A DNA stretch of 64,000 nt from contig JAPPKS010000014.1 of NCBI GenBank assembly GCA_028819845.1, forward strand, positions 1 through 64,000. The letters are read 5' to 3'. Position 1 is the first letter of the stretch. Every line of letters starts with the position of its first letter. Shown here piece after piece: positions 2,774 to 63,358 of this stretch. The notes under the pieces were generated by a model. That model was given only the letters and a program-made list of their open reading frames with translations. It was not told the origin of the DNA and did no database searches. This DNA is from Candidatus Poribacteria bacterium. GTDB taxonomy: Bacteria; Poribacteria; WGA-4E; PCPOR2b. The translations under genes and the position numbers were made by a program.

Positions 2774-3541
2774 TCAATCTTCATTATTTAATAGGTACGG
2801 TTTCATAAGCGCTTTGAGGTTGTTGGATCTTTTAAGCCAACCGGTGAGGGCGCTCGCATAAAATGACTCCTGTTTTGCAAGAGTTTTTAGGAATTTGCGC
2901 TTACGGTCATCAAACTTTAGAAAAACCCTCCACGCATAATCTGGATCCTCTTTCAATGCCACGTCAATGTTATCGTTGAATTTCTTGACTGCCAAGGTGG
3001 TATGTGTTTTCCAGATTCCGTCCGGTTCCACATTTGCCAGTTTCTGAATAACCCGTGTCGCATTTTTACCTGCAAGCGTAGCAAAGTCCGCATATCCAGC
3101 TTGCAAGCACGGATGAACATCCCAGCAACGATATCGTTCAAAATAATCGTGGTAGAACCTTTTTATCACCACAATATTTGCATCGGGCGAAGTCAACGCA
3201 TCTTGACTCGTGTTTGCGCCCCCTAAGCGGATTACATTTGCGGGGAGGTTCGCTTTATCGCCTTGTTTATTCCGCCATTCTGACCATGCGACAGCCGTAA
3301 TGCCCGCGTAAGACACCCCTCCAACATGTGCGGGTTCATGGATATTCAGCCCGGCTTCATGCTTCAGGATAAATCTCAAAATATCATCGCGATCAGGCCC
3401 GTTTATTGGCGTAGTCTTGGCAACATCGGCGGTTCTTGGGCTCAATCCAACAAATTTCAGCAATATGAGTAATATCACGCAACTCAGACTGATTCGAAAG
3501 ACTGAAACGAGACCGTCAAATTTAGGTATCTTCATGAACAT
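2774..3541 (-). CDS. Secreted GH108-type N-acetylmuramidase
   Basis: A 255-residue protein with an N-terminal hydrophobic export segment (FRISLSCVILLILLKFVG). The domain begins with DDILRFILKHEAGLN and GGVSYAGIT, matching the glycoside hydrolase 108 pattern in which the Glu of the E-x-G motif is the catalytic acid. The C-terminal half resembles the companion peptidoglycan-binding-like domain (VIQKLANVEPDGIWKTHT). It probably cleaves peptidoglycan in the periplasm. A GGAGGG site fits the ATG at 3541; 3535 is also possible. It is a clear paralog of the signal-less protein at 55742-56374. Confidence 0.65.
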   Translation of the reverse strand: MFMKIPKFDGLVSVFRISLSCVILLILLKFVGLSPRTADVAKTTPINGPDRDDILRFILKHEAGLNIHEPAHVGGVSYAGITAVAWSEWRNKQGDKANLPANVIRLGGANTSQDALTSPDANIVVIKRFYHDYFERYRCWDVHPCLQAGYADFATLAGKNATRVIQKLANVEPDGIWKTHTTLAVKKFNDNIDVALKEDPDYAWRVFLKFDDRKRKFLKTLAKQESFYASALTGWLKRSNNLKALMKPYLLNNED

Positions 3542-3547
3542 GGACAC

Positions 3548-15987: not shown

Positions 15988-17364
15988 TCATTGGATATGT
16001 TTCGCAACCTTGTCTATCTGCACAACGGCTGCCAGGATGGATTCCAACATTTCCAGATTTATCATGTTTTCCCCGTCGCAAAGCGCTTCATCCGGACGGT
16101 CGTGCACCTCCATAAACAGTGCGTCTATCCCGACTGCAGTAGCTGCGCGCGCTAAATGTGCCGCGAACTCTCTTCGTCCACCGGAGCTTCTCCCCAAGCC
16201 GCCCGGCAACTGAGTGCTGTGCGTCGCGTCGAACACAACCGGACATCCGGAGGACTGCATGATAGGAATCGAACTCATATCAACGACCAAATTGTTGTAA
16301 CCGAAACAACTGCCTCTTTCGGTGAGCAGGATATTTTGGTTTCCCGTGGATTTGATCTTGTCAACAACATTGCTCATGTCCTGCGGCGACATGAACTGCG
16401 CCTTCTTTACGTTGATTGGTTTCCCGGTGCTTCCAGCCGAAACGAGCAGATCTGTCTGTCTGCAAAGGAATGCGGGGACCTGTATCGCGTCAAGCACAGA
16501 GGAAGCAGGATTAACCTGATTGACGCGGTGTACATCTGAAAGCACCGGCACGCCAACCTCTTTTTGGACCTCCGCTAAGATGGAAAGCCCATTCACAAGC
16601 CCGGGACCTCGATAGGAGCTTATGGCGGACCGGTTCGCCTTGTCATACGAGGATTTGAAGACAAACGGGACTCCCAATTTTACCGAAATGCCTTTAATTG
16701 CTTCAGCCATCTTGAACGTGTGATCCCGACTTTCAATGACGCAGGGTCCCGCGATAAGCGCAATTGGGCGCCCTCCGCCAATCTGAACACCGTTTATCGC
16801 AACGACATTTGTCTTGGGATAACGGTCTTGGCGGTTGTCCATTGGCTTCACGACAGCATCTGGACTCTGTGGACGTTCTTCTTTCTGAGAAATTATCATG
16901 TCGCAGATCTCTCTTACGGCGCCGCCTCCACCAATGTTGCGCGTTATGTAATCGGCGCTGCGCTTCGCGGTATCGTGGGCGTCAGCGACCGCAACGGGCA
17001 ACCCAACGAAGTTCAAAACGCCAATATCGCCGAGATCGTCTCCGATGTAAAGCGCCTGGTCCGACGATATGTTATGCCGCCGCAAAATGTCCTGCAGAAC
17101 GGGAAGTTTGTCGCTCACACCCAGACGAATCTCGTCCACATGCAGTTCCTCCACACGCCTCCAAACAGCCTCGCCTGTACGTCCTGAGATGACAGCCAGC
17201 TTAATACCATGACTTTTGATGAGCTTCAGTCCCTGTCCGTCACGAACATTGTAAGCCTTTATCTCCTCACGCGAATCTGAATAGTAGAGTTTTCCGTCTG
17301 TCAACACCCCGTCAACGTCCATAACCAGGATTTGGACATCTCTTAGTTTCTCAATAAAGTTCAT
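15988..17364 (-). CDS. KdsC-KdsA fusion: Kdo-8-phosphate phosphatase plus Kdo-8-phosphate synthase
   Basis: A 458-residue bifunctional enzyme. Residues 1-165 are a HAD phosphatase of KdsC type: nucleophile motif D16-V-D18-GVLTDG, and IGDDLGD near 107-113. Residues 185-458 are a KdsA synthase joining arabinose-5-phosphate and phosphoenolpyruvate. Cys208 (AGPC), His381 (DATH), Glu418 (MEVH) and Asp429 match the metal-dependent class of KdsA; the metal-free class has Asn in place of that Cys. It would perform two successive steps of Kdo synthesis in the cytoplasm for lipopolysaccharide. It is followed upstream by the CARDB protein gene with a 39-base gap. Confidence 0.85.
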   Translation of the reverse strand: MNFIEKLRDVQILVMDVDGVLTDGKLYYSDSREEIKAYNVRDGQGLKLIKSHGIKLAVISGRTGEAVWRRVEELHVDEIRLGVSDKLPVLQDILRRHNISSDQALYIGDDLGDIGVLNFVGLPVAVADAHDTAKRSADYITRNIGGGGAVREICDMIISQKEERPQSPDAVVKPMDNRQDRYPKTNVVAINGVQIGGGRPIALIAGPCVIESRDHTFKMAEAIKGISVKLGVPFVFKSSYDKANRSAISSYRGPGLVNGLSILAEVQKEVGVPVLSDVHRVNQVNPASSVLDAIQVPAFLCRQTDLLVSAGSTGKPINVKKAQFMSPQDMSNVVDKIKSTGNQNILLTERGSCFGYNNLVVDMSSIPIMQSSGCPVVFDATHSTQLPGGLGRSSGGRREFAAHLARAATAVGIDALFMEVHDRPDEALCDGENMINLEMLESILAAVVQIDKVAKHIQ

Positions 17365-55741: not shown

Positions 55742-56374
55742 ATGGACAGAACAAAAATCATCCAGCTAATCATCGGTAGCGAGAAGGGAATTAACCGCAG
55801 AGAACCTGCGAACGTCGGCGGCATATCATGCGACGGTATCACGAAACAGAGCTGGGATATCTGGCGTCCCAAAAACCGCCACCGATTCCCGGGCGCGCCC
55901 GAGTCCGTCGAAGGTCTCATAAAACGCCAAGACATCGTTGAAGCGTTTTATGTCGATTATCTTGAACGCTATCATACATGGGAACTGCCCGAATTTCTTC
56001 AATATATCTATAGCGACTTCGTTGTAAATGCCGGCAAGGCTGCCGTCAAGATTGTCCAGCGCATGGCGGGCGCCGTTGACGATGGTGCATGGGGGCGCAA
56101 CACCAGCGGGGCGGTCGCCGCATGGAGACAAACCGTTGAAATTGAATTGCAATCCGATCCGGATGTCGACAATGAGTTGATTACTCGATTCCATGAGGAG
56201 AAACTAGCGCATTATCAACGTCTTGTAGACCTCAATCCGGATAAATTCAAACAATGGCATGCTGGTTGGAAACGCCGGGCGAACCATGTGCTTGCTCAAC
56301 TCGAGGAATACTTTGAAGTTGAGAAGGCGACCCCGTCAGCGATGCACGACGATGATGTCGACCAGAATTATTAA
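55742..56374 (+). CDS. GH108-type muramidase without a signal peptide
   Basis: A 210-residue protein with IIQLIIGSEKGIN and GGISCDGIT (GH108 catalytic Glu region) and a C-terminal region resembling its usual partner domain (KIVQRMAGAVDDGAWGRNT). It would cleave peptidoglycan glycan strands. No export signal is visible, unlike its paralog at 2774-3541, so release may need lysis, a holin or a different route. It follows an ECF sigma gene by 12 bases and may be a sigma-controlled lysis or remodelling gene. Confidence 0.65.
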   Translation: MDRTKIIQLIIGSEKGINRREPANVGGISCDGITKQSWDIWRPKNRHRFPGAPESVEGLIKRQDIVEAFYVDYLERYHTWELPEFLQYIYSDFVVNAGKAAVKIVQRMAGAVDDGAWGRNTSGAVAAWRQTVEIELQSDPDVDNELITRFHEEKLAHYQRLVDLNPDKFKQWHAGWKRRANHVLAQLEEYFEVEKATPSAMHDDDVDQNY

Positions 56375-56929
56375 GCCGATGATCACACGGCATCAAACGA
56401 TATATAACCAGCAGTAATACAGACTATTGAAAAACCATTTATGCCATTGCCACAAGCTGTACAAGACTTAACGCACGCATTAAAAGAAAGAGGGGTGATG
56501 AGATGAATTGACTGATGGAAATTAATCCGTCGCAATTATAACGTAGTCGTTGTTAACTTGAAAGTTCTGATTTCTTCCAACGAATTAATGGTTTAGAGGA
56601 AATCAAAACAATTCACTGGAAAATGGTTATAGGCGCAAGCCTGAAAATGGTAATTTCGATTGATTTTACGTTAGTTGGGAATTCGCAACCCCGCAATCAA
56701 CTACACTGTGCGAAAGTGTTGGGTAAGCGCGGTCGCCGGGCTTGGCAAGCGTCACACCCCTTACCGATTGCGAATAATGCCATAATTGCAAAATATCTGG
56801 AGGCCGTAAAAACACAAACGGTAATTAAAATCTTAGGTCGTGCCGGCGCGGTTTGGCGGCGCTGGTACTGCAATTATGGTATAATTGTTGGGAAATAATT
56901 CTTTTGACGCTAACAAAGGGAGGTTTCAA
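56375..56929. other. Intergenic region before the A-B gene array
   Basis: The region of 555 bases has no credible gene. It has several copies of CAATTAT or its complement (56530s, 56780s, 56871-56887) and ends with the possible promoter of the array. A small reading frame at 56623-56898 has no recognisable protein features and is rejected. Confidence 0.45.
56871..56887 (+). promoter_or_regulatory. Palindromic -10 region upstream of the A-B array
   Basis: CAATTATGGTATAATTG is a perfect palindrome with a seven-base arm and a three-base centre. It contains a TATAAT (56880-56885) 45 bases before the type A gene start. It could be a promoter with a built-in operator. No good -35 was found at 16-18 bases. 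Confidence 0.4.
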
Positions 56930-57667
56930 ATGAAGTGTGTATTTGTGGTATTGTTGGCGCTCTTGTGCGCGAGAGTGTGCTGGGGCGAAAGACAGCCGTA
57001 TTCGTTTACTGGCTTGACACCAGAAGAAATTGCGTGGCACGGTGCACTTGATATGGCAGATAAAAGCGATTTTATCGCTGTCGGCACAGTGGTGTTGATG
57101 TCTGCCAAGTATTATGAAAACATCCTGCCACACAACACCGATTTTGTGATGACCGATGTGCTTGTCAAGATAAGCGATCTTATCAAGGGCAAGCCTAATG
57201 TTGGCAAAGATCACATTAAATTTGCGATACACGGCGGCAGTGCTTATGTGCCAAGCCTTGGTCGTGTTTTGACACAAGCCTTGTTACAAGAAGTTAAGTT
57301 TGCCGTAGGCGAAAAGGTCTTACTGTTTTTAGCCAACAATACTAACGAAGGCGAATCGTATTACGCCAATTATCCGCACGGCAGGCATCGTGTGCACATG
57401 ATGACGTTTGGCAAACGTTTGGTAAAAGACGGCAAAGTGTCGTTTAACTATAATAAAGATGCGGTTGCCAAGCCTGTCCAAATGCCGCTAGAGTTGGCGA
57501 CATCCTTGCTTAAGTCATATCTCAAGGACGCGAATGCAACATTGCCTTTGGAGAACGAAATTAAGACGCTCGTTCGAGAGTCCGACGGCAAAGCCATTGT
57601 GTCAAAGAAGTTAGCCGATGAGTTGAAAAAGAAATCTGACAAGATTATTAGAAAGGAGAAGAAATGA
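56930..57667 (+). CDS. Type A secreted protein of the A-B array (A1)
   Basis: A 245-residue protein with a signal peptide (MKCVFVVLLALLCARVCWG). The core reads SDFIAVGTVV, then TDVLVKISDLIKGKPNVG, then GGSAYVP and VGEKVLLFLANN, a beta-strand pattern seen in proteins found next to matrixin-type proteases in other bacteria. The pattern of an early SD.VxxG strand and a late KG turn resembles NTR/OB-type folds, but no Cys of TIMP-type inhibitors is present. AAGGGAGG precedes the ATG. It overlaps the next gene by ATGA, which suggests translational coupling. Its function is unknown; an inhibitor or chaperone of its partner protease is a hypothesis. Confidence 0.6.
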   Translation: MKCVFVVLLALLCARVCWGERQPYSFTGLTPEEIAWHGALDMADKSDFIAVGTVVLMSAKYYENILPHNTDFVMTDVLVKISDLIKGKPNVGKDHIKFAIHGGSAYVPSLGRVLTQALLQEVKFAVGEKVLLFLANNTNEGESYYANYPHGRHRVHMMTFGKRLVKDGKVSFNYNKDAVAKPVQMPLELATSLLKSYLKDANATLPLENEIKTLVRESDGKAIVSKKLADELKKKSDKIIRKEKK

Positions 57668-58377
57668 TGATTAGATTTGGCTTGGTGCTAGCCGCTCTTT
57701 TAATTGTTTGTCCGAATCTAGGACATTCCCACTGTCATAATAATGGATCTGGCCCTGAAGATCCGATGATAGTACGCGGAAACAAGGTATGGCCACCTGA
57801 GAAAAAAAACAGTGATGGCGTGTATGAAATTGTCGTTTGGGTAAACAATATATATCGCCCTAGACCTGCGGGCAATCCCTCTTTATCGCCCGATTGTGGA
57901 GATGCGGGTGAAATATGGTCGGAAATTGAATTTCAGGGTAGTGAGATTAAGTTCAAGTACAACATGAATGAGTCGCACCAATTTTACGCCAATGTGAAAG
58001 ACAACCGCAATGTTATGGCTTATAGTTGTATGGGGCGACATAATCCGACCATTGCTTTCACCTACCATGTTAATGTTGACGGCAATCGAATAAATGAATT
58101 AGATGTCGGGTTCAACTATTACAAAGACTTTAAGAAGCACGGGCAGTCAGGTCTCTATTATTGTATCAAAGAGATAGCCGCCCATGAATTGGGGCATGTG
58201 GCGGGTTTAGAAGATGTTTATTACGATCCCGATCTGCCGGTAAGCAGAACAAATAGTCCCGACTATGCGCATTATTCTATGAATGGGCATTTCCCAAGCA
58301 AGAATACGCATTGGCGTGAAAGTTTGAATTGTGAAGATAAGTACGCTTTAGACCAAAAGTATTCGTACGGTCCATAA
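57664..58377 (+). CDS. Matrixin-like secreted metalloprotease of the A-B array (B1)
   Basis: A 237-residue protein with a signal peptide (FGLVLAALLIVCPNLGHS). The zinc site is HELGHVAGLED with His174, Glu175, His178 and a third ligand of Asp184 in place of His. A Met turn (SMNG, Met206) follows, as in metzincins. Conserved DVGFN-like and NVMAY segments support a matrixin-like fold. Just after the signal lies HCHN (Cys24), also present in B2; a Cys-switch-like latch is possible. It is much shorter than animal matrixins. It overlaps A1 by 4 bases (ATGA). Confidence 0.7.
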   Translation: MMIRFGLVLAALLIVCPNLGHSHCHNNGSGPEDPMIVRGNKVWPPEKKNSDGVYEIVVWVNNIYRPRPAGNPSLSPDCGDAGEIWSEIEFQGSEIKFKYNMNESHQFYANVKDNRNVMAYSCMGRHNPTIAFTYHVNVDGNRINELDVGFNYYKDFKKHGQSGLYYCIKEIAAHELGHVAGLEDVYYDPDLPVSRTNSPDYAHYSMNGHFPSKNTHWRESLNCEDKYALDQKYSYGP

Positions 58378-58398
58378 CAAACCTAAAGGAGGGTTCAG

Positions 58399-59112
58399 AT
58401 GAAGTATGTATTTGTAGTTTTGCTGGTGATGGGACTGGTGGTTCCAACGTCGTTTGCTGCCGGTGGCTATTTCGATGATTTGTCGCTCTATTCTTTGCTT
58501 AAAAGCATAGATAACAGCGATATAGTTGCCATTGGTACTGTTTCACTTCTAACTGGTGTTTATCGGGAGAACCTGTTAGGTCCCAAGAAACATTGTATTT
58601 GTACCGATGTTCTAGTTCGATTAGATACCATGATTAAGGGTGAGCCAAATTTCGGGCCTAATTATATCAAGTTCATGGTGCTCGGTGGCACAGCCTATGT
58701 TCCGCATAAAGAAGAGGTCATGGGCATGTGGGTTAGCACACAAGCCACGTTTGAAGTTGGCGAAAAAGTGTTTATTATGCTGACGAATGACCAGAATACG
58801 ACTTACTATGCCAACTATCCTTACGGCAAAAACCGTTTAATCTACGATGATTATGGCAAACGGTTGATTAAGGAAGATAAGGTAGAGTTTTGGTACAAAA
58901 AGGAAGACAAGGTGAAGCCGATGCAGTTGTCTCTTGATGTTGCCAAGAATTTGGGCAAGGCTTTTATCGAAGACAAGGCTGCTGCACTTCTACTTGAAAA
59001 CCAGATCAAAAATGTTGCAAGTAACACCGATGAGAATTCCTTAACACTAGCCCAGAAAAGTACTTTGATTGATAGTTCTAAACGTCTATTTGAAAAGGAG
59101 AAAACAAAGTGA
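58399..59112 (+). CDS. Type A secreted protein of the A-B array (A2)
   Basis: A 237-residue protein, paralogous to A1: signal (MKYVFVVLLVMGLVVPTSFA), SDIVAIGTVSLL, TDVLVRLDTMIKGEPNFG, GGTAYVP, VGEKVFIMLTND, and YGKRLIKEDKVEF matching FGKRLVKDGKVSF in A1. GGAGGG precedes the ATG, 22 bases after B1. The last codons overlap the start of B2 by 4 bases. Unknown function, most likely the same as A1. Confidence 0.65.
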   Translation: MKYVFVVLLVMGLVVPTSFAAGGYFDDLSLYSLLKSIDNSDIVAIGTVSLLTGVYRENLLGPKKHCICTDVLVRLDTMIKGEPNFGPNYIKFMVLGGTAYVPHKEEVMGMWVSTQATFEVGEKVFIMLTNDQNTTYYANYPYGKNRLIYDDYGKRLIKEDKVEFWYKKEDKVKPMQLSLDVAKNLGKAFIEDKAAALLLENQIKNVASNTDENSLTLAQKSTLIDSSKRLFEKEKTK

Positions 59113-59789
59113 GGAAAATAAGCATCGCAATTTTTGTGATTGCAGCCATAGCAAATCCAGCGTTAGTGGTTTACTCGCATTGCCATAACACGTACCCATG
59201 CGAGCAAGTCCAAAGTCGTGTTGTTGGGCCGTGGGAGTGGGCAACGTTTCATGTGCCAGTGGATTGGTATATCAATCCGACACAATCAGGAATGCCGTCA
59301 TTAACAACCGATGTTACGGCTGCTGCCAATTCATGGAGCAACATTCAGCGATCGGATGGCACGACAATAGATTTTAGTTATCGAAGTCAGGGACTGATTG
59401 ACGCCGAGGCTGGTGACTACGATAACAAAAATGTAGTGAGTTGGGTCGGCATGGAAAACAGTCCGAATGCCGCCGTGACATATATATGGCTGATAGGCGG
59501 CATTGGGCCTTTAATAGATGAGGTTGATATAGGTTTCAACTACTATAAGGATTGGAAAACACATGCTAACAAAACCGATGGCTATCTTTGTATTCGAGAC
59601 ACGGCTGCCCATGAGTGGGGCCACGCTGCGGGCTTAAAGCATGTGAAATACGATCCGACAAAAACTTCTGGGATAGGCAACTGTCCTGCATGGCAAGACT
59701 ACACTATGCACGCTGGTGCTAGTCCAAATTCGCATGACAGGGAATCGCTGGCGTGTGAAGACAAATGGGCATTGGATTATAAGTATTAG
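59109..59789 (+). CDS. Matrixin-like secreted metalloprotease of the A-B array (B2)
   Basis: A 226-residue paralog of B1 starting at a GTG. It has a signal (IAIFVIAAIANPALVVYS), an HCHN segment near residue 25, and the zinc site HEWGHAAGLKH with His168, Glu169, His172 and the classical third ligand His178. A Met turn at Met200 (YTMHAG) is kept. Compared with B1, the third ligand differs (His here, Asp there). Its stop is followed by a non-coding stretch. Translational coupling to A2 is likely. Confidence 0.7.
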   Translation: MRKISIAIFVIAAIANPALVVYSHCHNTYPCEQVQSRVVGPWEWATFHVPVDWYINPTQSGMPSLTTDVTAAANSWSNIQRSDGTTIDFSYRSQGLIDAEAGDYDNKNVVSWVGMENSPNAAVTYIWLIGGIGPLIDEVDIGFNYYKDWKTHANKTDGYLCIRDTAAHEWGHAAGLKHVKYDPTKTSGIGNCPAWQDYTMHAGASPNSHDRESLACEDKWALDYKY

Positions 59790-60694: not shown

Positions 60695-60889
60695 AACGCT
60701 AGAAATGGTTTTCAAATGACATGATGTTTGGCTGGATTTGGTTTGGTGTTTTCCTTTGGCTTATAACTTATAATTACCCCCAAAAACTAGACAGTGTCTT
60801 AAGGTGGATTTTTTGCTGGCAAAACGGCCATGTTATGAGCCATAATAAGGCTCAGCAATGCCAATAACTGCGAAAGGAGTTTGTTTAAC

Positions 60890-61177
60890 ATGGGTGGTAG
60901 AAAGCAGTACGATAACCGATTCAAAGCGCAGGTGGCGATTGAGGCAATTAAAAATGAACGCACCATGGCGCAGATTGCCAGTGACTACGAAGTTCACCCG
61001 AATCAGGTCAGGCAGCGGAAAAGACAGATTCTGGAGGAATCACCCCAGCTTTTTGCGAACGGACACACGCAATCAACTTCCGACAACGACCGCCTTATAG
61101 CTGAACTCTACCGGCAAATCGGTCAGTTGAAGGTAGAACTAGACTGGCTTCAAAAAAAAACTCGACTGCTCCATTAG
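60890..61177 (+). CDS. IS3-family transposase OrfA
   Basis: A 95-residue helix-turn-helix protein (YDNRFKAQVAIEAIKNERTM, MAQIASDYEVHPNQVRQRKR) ending in a leucine-rich segment. It binds the element's ends. AAAGGAG lies before the ATG at 60890. Its last codons contain a run of nine A at 61152-61160, where a -1 slip joins it to OrfB and gives the full transposase. Confidence 0.8.
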   Translation: MGGRKQYDNRFKAQVAIEAIKNERTMAQIASDYEVHPNQVRQRKRQILEESPQLFANGHTQSTSDNDRLIAELYRQIGQLKVELDWLQKKTRLLH

Positions 61178-62004
61178 AACAGAAGCGGCAGCATATCAAG
61201 CAAGAGCGCGGTGCTCCATCGGTTTCGAGACAATGCGAACTGTTAGGGTTGCCGCGCGCTTCGTATTATTATCAACCCGCGGCGGAAGAGTCGCCGGAAA
61301 ACCTGCTTTATATGCGTCTGATTGACGAACAGTACATCAAGACGCCGTGCTACGGTGTACCTCGAATGACGGACTGGCTATGTGATAATGGCTACGCTGT
61401 CAACCGCAAACGGATTGCTCGGTTAATGCGAAAGATGGACTTAGTTGCCATCTATCCCAAGCCCCGTCTCTCCAAGCATGGCAGGCCGTCGAAAAAGTAT
61501 GCTTATTTACTGAAGGATTCAATTATCACTCGACCGGACCAGGTGTGGGCAACTAATATCACCTATATCCGCTTGACCACCGGCTTTGTGTATCTAGTGG
61601 CGATTATGGATTGGTACTCTCGATATGTGTTATCATGGGAATTGTCAAATACACTAGACGTTTACTTTTGCCTATCGGCACTGGAACGGGCATTGAGTTG
61701 TTCTCGGCCTTTGATATTCAATAGCGACCAGGGCGCGCAGTTCACGTCAGATGCCTTTACGGCTCGGCTTGAATCGGCTAACATTCGCATCAGTTGGACG
61801 GGTGCAGGCAGCGTGTTTGACAACATTTTAATTGAGCGTCTCTGGCGGACCGTCAAGTATGAACATGTCTATCTTCACGCTTATGATTCAGTTCACGCTG
61901 CTTGGTGCGGCTTGAACAACTATTTCAAGTTTTATAATGAGGAGCGGCTTCATACGTCGCTCAATACTAGAACACCTCACGAGGTGTATTTTCAAAAAAC
62001 CTAG
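61159..62004 (+). CDS. IS3-family transposase OrfB (rve domain), catalytic Asp replaced
   Basis: The frame continues without stops from the A run at 61152-61160, so it is made as a fusion by -1 frameshifting and needs no own start. It has the retroviral-integrase-like core: SDQGAQFTS supplies the second Asp and ILIERLW the Glu. The first Asp, expected in T-D-ITYI, is Asn here (codon AAT at 61555-61557), which should abolish catalysis. Confidence 0.8.
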   Translation, partial: NSTAPLEQKRQHIKQERGAPSVSRQCELLGLPRASYYYQPAAEESPENLLYMRLIDEQYIKTPCYGVPRMTDWLCDNGYAVNRKRIARLMRKMDLVAIYPKPRLSKHGRPSKKYAYLLKDSIITRPDQVWATNITYIRLTTGFVYLVAIMDWYSRYVLSWELSNTLDVYFCLSALERALSCSRPLIFNSDQGAQFTSDAFTARLESANIRISWTGAGSVFDNILIERLWRTVKYEHVYLHAYDSVHAAWCGLNNYFKFYNEERLHTSLNTRTPHEVYFQKT

Positions 62005-62092
62005 GTGTTGAAGCACAGCCGGATTGCCTAGCAATTACACCTTAATAGACGAGCATAACTGTCTAGACATTGGGGGTAAGTAAACTGTAGGA

Positions 62093-62311
62093 TTGCCTAA
62101 GGTGCTAATTCAGTCCTATATCAAAGAAAAAACGCCGAAGCTTGCGCTTGAGGACGAGACAAAAACTTTTGTACGCAATTCGGCTGCCAACACAAAGTGT
62201 CTCGATTATCAATTTTATACCATGAATGGCCATTATGCCGCTTGCGACCATTTCAGAGAATCGCTGCGATGTGAAGATATGTAAGCATTAGACCAGAAGT
62301 ATCGTTATTGA
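62093..62311 (+). pseudogene. Decayed A-B array remnant: tail of type A joined to tail of type B
   Basis: The start of the frame matches the C terminus of A1 (SYIKEKTPKLALEDETKTFV against SYLKDANATLPLENEIKTLV), then it switches to the C terminus of B1 (YTMNGHYAACDHFRESLRCED against YSMNGH...WRESLNCED). A TAA at 62282 then interrupts the B1-like ALDQKYRY tail. So an internal deletion fused the two ends of a former A-B pair and it has decayed since. It lies immediately beside the IS3 element's right end. Confidence 0.7.
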
Positions 62312-62319
62312 TCGATCAT

Positions 62320-62376
62320 ATGGAGAGAAAATCAATCGCCTGTGAGGACATTTGGGCATTGGATTATAAGGATTAA
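62320..62376 (+). pseudogene. Decayed tail of another type B protease
   Basis: Eighteen codons read MERKSIACEDIWALDYKD then stop, matching DRESLACEDKWALDYKY at the end of B2. Upstream sequence is not recognisable. It is the remnant of another B gene placed directly after the previous remnant. Confidence 0.6.
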
Positions 62377-62503
62377 AGAGGTACACTCGGTCGAATGAAG
62401 ATTTTCGACAACAGTTGTATTATTGCGAGGCAACGCCGTGGACTCGGCGTTATCCATCAATTACAACGCCTTGGGGTAAACTCAAACTTAACGGAGGATT
62501 CAA

Positions 62504-62809
62504 ATGAAGTGCGTTTTTGCGGTTTTACTGGCGGTTTTGTGTGCTGGCGTGTGTGATTTAGCGGCATTACAAGCCGATTATCCACCGTCTGACGGGAATC
62601 AGGCGCGCAATCCTGTCGTGGTTATTCAATTACCGTCTATCGTAGACGATAATCCGTGCGATCCGCTGCCGGACACGGTTATGCCGCCGATAATTATAGG
62701 CTGCGATGCGCCTCCGGAGCTAGAATTGCCAGCCCACAGCGTCACGATTGCGCGTGTTTTTTGGTTTACCGTCAGGGCGTTGCTCGCTCTGGTGTACATT
62801 CACCCTTAA
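62504..62809 (+). CDS. Short ORF carrying the type A signal peptide
   Basis: A 101-residue ORF. Its first residues, MKCVFAVLLAVLCAGVCDL, are nearly identical to the A1 signal, and the upstream AACGGAGG site is similar too. The rest is unrelated to type A proteins: a Pro-rich middle with two Cys and a hydrophobic C terminus. It is likely a chimera formed by recombination or a fragment that lost its body. Whether it is expressed is unknown. Confidence 0.5.
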   Translation: MKCVFAVLLAVLCAGVCDLAALQADYPPSDGNQARNPVVVIQLPSIVDDNPCDPLPDTVMPPIIIGCDAPPELELPAHSVTIARVFWFTVRALLALVYIHP

Positions 62810-62843: not shown

Positions 62844-62913
62844 TTACCCCCAATGTTTAGACAGTTATGTTTGTTGATTAAGGTGCAATTGCTACACAAG
62901 TTTAGGCAATCGG
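62844..62913 (-). repeat. Solo IS3-element end, inverted remnant
   Basis: The 70 bases begin TTACCCCCAATGTTTAGACA and continue with AAGGTGCAATTGCT, matching the reverse complement of the right end of the IS at 60774-62079 with a few mismatches. It is a leftover of a second copy or of a deletion event, in the opposite orientation to the complete element. Confidence 0.65.
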
Positions 62914-63035
62914 ATGCGATTAAACCTCACAAATCAAGCAGTTCACAGTTACCCAATTCCTTTTCTGCTTGAATAGCCCGCGTGGATCTGTTACTATTTG
63001 AACAGCGAAGAAAAAAATAAAACTGAATATTCATT

Positions 63036-63213
63036 CGATTCAGGCGCCAGCAATCCAATAGCGATTGTGGAGAATAGGGAAGCGCGGTGAAAAACCGCCA
63101 CGGCCCCGCCACTGTGAACGACGAATAATCGTGTCCACGATGCCACTGTCCCGGCAGGTTGAGATGGGAAGGCGGACACGAGGTGTCGCCAGTCAGGAGA
63201 CCTACCTGAATCG
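63036..63213 (+). promoter_or_regulatory. Cobalamin (adenosylcobalamin) riboswitch
   Basis: CGATTCAGG at 63036-63044 and CCTGAATCG at 63205-63213 form a perfect nine-base-pair closing stem. Inside are the family's conserved boxes: GGGAAGCGCGGTGAAAA, CCCCGCCACTGTGA, GCCACTG, GGGAAGGC and CCAGTCAGGAGACC. Together these are a clear B12-sensing RNA. It is followed by a possible anti-terminator arm and an intrinsic terminator just before the next gene, so it likely turns that gene off when cobalamin is plentiful. Confidence 0.9.
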
Positions 63214-63301
63214 CGTTTCACACAGAGTTTTCGCGGGAAGGCTGTGAACCAGAAAATGCGTTCCTTTTACCGAAACGGCGGGTTTAGGAATAGCGAACTG
63301 T

Positions 63302-63337: not shown

Positions 63338-63358
63338 TTTTAGATGGCAATGCTTAAG

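Follow-up and report, generated by a model that had tools for sequence, protein, structure and literature searches.

PotA, an OB-fold protein, is an inhibitor of the matrixin karilysin. It is one of the potempins, lipoproteins present in one species and its kin, each of them directed against a different protease class. The genes for these small secreted proteins lie immediately ahead of those for the KLIKK proteases of Tannerella forsythia, and potempins are specific for these proteases (PMC7296668). A second bacterial case is the Mtz-Tim pair of Listeria, in which the metzincin Mtz cleaves its partner Tim, a TIMP-like lipoprotein; the authors found no further record of a TIMP-like protein in bacteria (PMC8235301). 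The inhibitor Inh of Pseudomonas aeruginosa is periplasmic and blocks the zinc of AprA through its N-terminal amine, with a fold that differs from that of the TIMPs (PMC8235301). Inhibition by TIMPs also involves the N-terminal amine, which comes to lie on the zinc (PMC3679795), and TIMP expression has been reviewed as occurring in all Metazoa (PMC9409782).

The locus described here contains two copies of a gene pair, A-B, in which A codes for a secreted protein and B for a small matrixin-like protease. The pair is real, widespread and so far without a name. The A family is unnamed, and no paper on it was found among the open-access papers searched. An earlier note on this DNA had regarded the pair as the best candidate for an undescribed system; this is only partly right, since similar metzincin/TIMP-like and matrixin/potempin pairs have been published (PMC8235301, PMC7296668). 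As PotA lies upstream of karilysin, A lies directly upstream of its protease, both here and in most relatives. Unlike the potempins, A lacks a lipobox (as judged by eye), is larger, and is paired with matrixins in many bacterial families. Going by its description, the Mtz-Tim pair of Listeria and other Gram-positives, whose members are always found together, also sets a secreted HEXXHXXGXXH/D metzincin beside a predicted TIMP-like fold; it differs from A-B in that the metzincin gene comes first, the pair is phage-associated and Tim is a lipoprotein. The Mtz-Tim pair was absent from the record of phage A500. Inh/AprA likewise has an inhibitor encoded near a bacterial metzincin, but AprA is a serralysin and B a small matrixin.

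Two A-B pairs in tandem

The window (the whole 64,000 nt stretch of DNA that was analysed) comes from a 4.6 Mb genome of Candidatus Poribacteria. Direct reading of the frames and junctions placed four genes in a row on the forward strand, in the order A1, B1, A2, B2 (Table 1). The earlier note had described a four-base stop/start overlap within each pair, the repetition of the pair as a unit, motifs common to the A proteins and a metzincin site in the B proteins, and all of these were found again. A Shine-Dalgarno-like stretch precedes each of the four starts, a Sec-type signal peptide is present at the start of all four proteins, and the leaders of the A genes correspond to a repeated block of 40–64 nt. 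Since the start codon of B overlaps the stop codon of A, and A comes first, the synthesis of the two proteins is coupled. A1 and A2 are ∼40% identical, and B1 and B2 ∼39–42%; these values are alike, which indicates a similar divergence of both partners since the pair was duplicated. Profiles built exclusively from non-poribacterial relatives recognized A1 (5e-12), A2 (2.4e-11), B1 (4e-12) and B2 (2.5e-21); no other ORF of the window matched these A and B profiles.

Table 1. Positions in the window of the A and B genes, their decayed copies and the associated mobile element
Feature	Position	Strand	Remarks
A1 leader/ribosome-binding stretch	56916..56929	+	AAGGGAGGTTTCAA; also precedes A2 and the decayed copy at 62490
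A1	56930..57667	+	Secreted, 245 aa; predicted NTR/TIMP-like domain plus helical C-terminal region; predicted mature chain without Cys
A-domain profile match within A1	57050..57397	+	
B1	57664..58377	+	Predicted secreted matrixin-like metzincin, 237 aa; ATGA overlap with A1
B1 zinc-binding motif	58183..58215	+	HELGHVAGLED; Asp as third ligand
A2 leader/ribosome-binding stretch	58385..58398	+	
A2	58399..59112	+	A1 paralogue, 237 aa; predicted structure NTR/TIMP-like
A-domain profile match within A2	58492..58839	+	
B2	59109..59789	+	B1 paralogue, 226 aa; GTG start; GTGA overlap with A2
B2 zinc-binding motif	59610..59642	+	HEWGHAAGLKH; His as third ligand
IS3-type element	60771..62082	+	Carries two ORFs for transposase and has 25-nt terminal inverted repeats; situated within the decayed portion of the array; family assigned by reading
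Decayed third copy	62093..62308	+	C-terminal piece of A fused to C-terminal piece of B; internal TAA
Decayed copy	62323..62375	+	Final ∼17 codons of a B gene
Decayed copy	62490..62554	+	A leader and start of signal peptide, continuing into an unrelated reading frame

B1 and B2 both contain the HEXXHXXGXXH/D motif and the downstream Met-turn expected of metzincins, the latter being HYSMNG in B1 and DYTMHA in B2. Against Pfam Peptidase_M10 they scored 13.4 and 18.6 bits, respectively, both under the curated cut-off of 24. Ten of ten A-linked proteases scanned from other bacteria matched Pfam Matrixin, nine of them passing its cut-off. The zinc motif, the Met-turn and the match to a profile of A-linked matrixins agree with the assignment made in the earlier note, and by these sequence features both B proteins are small, secreted metzincins that resemble matrixins. 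The HExxH motif lies at residue 174 in B1 and 168 in B2 (median 178 among the B proteins encoded separately from A). With the active site starting at residue 168–174, and little beyond the catalytic domain remaining after the signal peptide, B would have no room for an MMP-type prodomain.

Further copies of A and B, overlooked in the earlier note and all of them decayed, were found downstream of the two pairs. The A-B pair has undergone tandem duplication at least twice, both of its members diverging to ∼40% identity, and later copies have decayed around the IS element. A lone, inverted copy of one IS end (56 nt, 86%) was also present at 62844–62899, within the same decayed stretch. On the other side, directly 5′ of the A/B array, lies an ORF for a GH108-like lysin or lysozyme-like protein (55742–56374; E 1.3e-6); a second GH108/lysozyme-like ORF of the window (2774–3547) was recognized by reading only.

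Association of A with matrixins

The sample outside Poribacteria consisted of about 300 genomes from non-poribacterial bacterial families. A deep profile made from 43 natural A cores detected A at 76 places, spread over 48 of these genomes. For 75 A loci, every reading frame was then compared with this profile and with one for matrixins; four loci were cut by contig ends and 71 could be resolved. A matrixin was encoded on the same strand as A, either adjacent to it or in the same chain, at 62 of these 71 loci, which are not fully independent since close relatives (e.g. G211 and G347) are among them. The nine resolvable loci without a matrixin were L088, L133, L139, L145, L146, L159, L162, L163 and L165. 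The A loci covered 747 kb in total, and all 64 matrixin matches within this length lay at most 2.3 kb from A, with none elsewhere. The matrixin profile behind both counts had been trained on partners of A, and Pfam's own matrixin model was therefore used too. With this independent model, an A gene was found within 3 kb and on the same strand for 32 of the 75 non-poribacterial matrixins among the strongest matches listed. These results bear out what the earlier note had suggested, namely that A-like proteins adjoin matrixin-type proteases in other bacteria. The A match of an LptE-like protein (L126) was dismissed as false.

The usual gene order was A followed by B, and many of the junctions were stop/start overlaps (TGATG, ATGA or GTGA). 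A was fused to the protease at several loci, being N-terminal to it at L090, L095, L097 and L105 and C-terminal at L106, L120 and L122; at L092, L111 and L115 it was encoded after the protease. Two of the fused chains (L106, 1839–4163; L120, 4613–6511) are single ORFs coding for a matrixin, a membrane anchor with an Arg-rich end, a second signal-like stretch and an A domain, and may be processed into two proteins. At L111 and L115, two A domains occur in tandem directly 3′ of a small metzincin. The chain at L086 (5745–8315) ends in an A domain and has a front that resembles the protease of L106 but lacks HExxH, possibly representing an inactive protease.

Distances between A proteins and those between their B partners were correlated over the 62 pairs (Mantel r 0.63, not reached in any of 2000 permutations; 0.31 when close pairs were left out), a correlation that partly reflects shared species history. 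Direct searches of viral contigs, plasmids and phages with A and B yielded little, a Hymenobacter plasmid protein being the sole clear relative of A.

Inside Poribacteria, the A-B pair is known from this locus only, and B homologs were found in the window's own genome only. That genome also contains a stand-alone A paralogue (C35, L003), and relatives of A are present in the same poribacterial family. Within the reach of the contigs, no metzincin ORF lay closer than ∼10 kb to any poribacterial A homolog beyond the window. Strict coupling of A and B, as the earlier note had it, applies to this locus and to most of the non-poribacterial genomes and does not extend to the other poribacterial A homologs. 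The occurrence of A mostly without B, which the note had named as an outcome that would speak against its proposal, is what was observed within Poribacteria and the opposite of what was observed outside. In two poribacterial ORFs (L005, 1336–3525; L006, 1–2196), an A-type domain is joined to some 20 leucine-rich repeats, and no protease lies nearby. A distant A-like domain also forms the front of a secreted protein of ∼400 aa with another C-terminal domain, found in many genomes of the order (L060–L084, and L018 at 1435–2616).

Predicted fold and N-terminus of A

Sequence comparisons gave no significant match for A in Pfam, NCBIfam or the PDB, and none at all to the TIMP/NTR families of Pfam (E up to 1) or to the solved TIMPs in the PDB (E up to 10). 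The only Pfam family matched by more than one of the 43 A cores was agrin NtA, and this weakly (two of 43; E 0.019). Other Pfam matches, such as PG_binding_4 (E 0.028), were taken as chance.

The AlphaFold model of A2, a low-confidence model obtained from a three-sequence alignment (mean pLDDT 58; 66–88 in the core), shows a helix followed by a beta-rich domain. When this model was compared with the PDB using Foldseek, TIMP-2/MMP-13, TIMP-2, agrin NtA and the PCOLCE NTR domain were among the first seven matches (probability 0.89–1.00, E 0.003–0.03, TM 0.24–0.42). For a distant relative of A (L033), whose model was also of low confidence (mean pLDDT 65), the first matches were agrin NtA, C3 C345C and the PCOLCE NTR domain, with TIMP-1/MT1-MMP and N-TIMP-3/TACE lower in the list (TM up to 0.52). 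E-values never fell below 0.001 for either model, and the two models are not fully independent since one small alignment was common to both. The hallmark of the NTR/OB superfamily is a five-stranded OB barrel with a flanking helix; what the two low-confidence models offer in this respect is that NTR/TIMP structures rank first. The earlier guess of an NTR-type fold is in this way backed by both comparisons, and the view of A as a secreted protein with a predicted NTR/OB fold is supported at low confidence. No potempin appeared among the best 50 matches of either list.

In human TIMP-1, the residue equivalent to the core Gly of A is Ala21. With the mature N-terminus of A set by a simple cleavage-site rule rather than a trained predictor, the core Gly was residue 20 or 21 of the mature chain in 48 of 61 non-poribacterial A proteins, and exactly residue 21 in 34; the predicted mature start was Thr or Ser in many A proteins. 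The 20–21-residue spacing of these relatives hints at a possible TIMP-like N-terminus, as a lead and not as proof, and a compact domain could also fix this spacing for other reasons. A1 and A2 themselves fall outside it, with longer N-termini that place the core Gly at about residue 25 or 33 (by reading). Neither protein shows the Cys-X-Cys with which mature TIMPs begin: mature A1 is predicted to contain no Cys, and A2 two internal ones. Given the longer N-termini and the lack of Cys1, a zinc-chelating N-terminus of the TIMP type is not to be assumed for A1 and A2. The lipobox [LVI][ASTVI][GAS]C was absent, by reading, from the leaders of both. The likeness to animal TIMPs therefore lies in the predicted NTR/OB fold, the matrixin partner and the spacing seen in most relatives of A; unlike them, A is bacterial, has no Cys-X-Cys N-terminus or TIMP disulfides, and shares a single operon with its enzyme.

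Possible roles of A

The earlier note suggested that A might inhibit B or serve as a trans-acting prodomain of it, which is plausible. The reading we favour, with a probability of about 0.6, is that A is a TIMP- or potempin-like inhibitor or latency partner that is made and exported together with B and binds it. A would be translated first and B second; A would then bind B in trans and suppress its activity, either during export or on the cell surface. B might be freed once the target is reached or once A is removed, be it by dilution, by proteolysis or by a target.

A could also be a trans-acting, prodomain-like helper of folding or export that B needs for its maturation, binding transiently and being degraded thereafter. 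The absence of a prodomain from B (HExxH near residue 168–178), the synthesis of A ahead of and in step with B, and the four chains in which A occupies the prodomain position, N-terminal to the protease (L090, L095, L097 and L105), are all consistent with such a role. Against such a role, A is found on the C-terminal side of the protease in other chains (L106, L120 and L122) or is encoded later than it (L092, L111 and L115), and 43 of the 75 matrixins among the matches listed do without A; on balance, we judge a helper function unlikely. The Listeria pair offers another model, in which A would be an effector or substrate: B would cleave A, and the freed fragment would act on the cell wall or on neighbouring cells. 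There, the TIMP-like partner is cut and released by the metzincin and both proteins are needed for the phenotype (PMC8235301), and the gene for a GH108-like lysin adjoining the array (55742–56374) would fit an action on the cell wall. The gene order is nevertheless the opposite one, with the metzincin leading in Listeria and A leading at this locus, and A1 and A2 lack a lipobox by eye, making this role quite unlikely for A.

A remaining alternative sees in A a general secreted module for binding or anchoring, which would bring B to a surface and leave its activity uncontrolled. NTR domains also bind matrix proteins, the Foldseek matches include the binding domains agrin NtA and complement C345C, and in Poribacteria, A domains without any protease are joined to leucine-rich repeats (L005 and L006) or to a different C-terminal domain (L018). 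A general anchor, however, would not be expected to pair so selectively with one protease family (62 of 71 loci) while being encoded by a gene of its own whose translation is coupled to that of the protease, and we regard this role as very improbable.

If A is indeed an inhibitor, it would explain how bacteria handle matrixins that lack a prodomain, would provide a ready-made collection of natural inhibitors for matrix metalloproteases and would open the origin of the TIMP/MMP pair of animals to testing. As it stands, a partner absent from Pfam and NCBIfam accompanies ∼40% of the non-poribacterial matrixins among the matches listed. The occurrence of the pair in dozens of unrelated bacteria suggests that the protease-inhibitor couple of animals has a widespread counterpart in bacteria; Mtz-Tim and the potempins, so far isolated reports, are thereby tied to an arrangement that may be common among bacteria. 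A bolder proposal, which we consider unlikely, is that A belongs to a bacterial branch of great age within the NTR superfamily and, in most lineages, inhibits matrixins in the TIMP manner, through the free N-terminus of the mature protein. In that case, bacteria would harbour a widespread counterpart of the TIMP-MMP couple of animals, possibly with an ancestor in common.

Two other features of the window were recorded. A cobalamin riboswitch (Rfam RF00174, 103 bits) lies at 63025–63223 on the forward strand, just 5′ of a gene starting near 63350. On the reverse strand, a single ORF (15988–17364) appears by eye to code for two steps of KDO biosynthesis in one chain, with a KdsC-like phosphatase ahead of a KdsA-like synthase.
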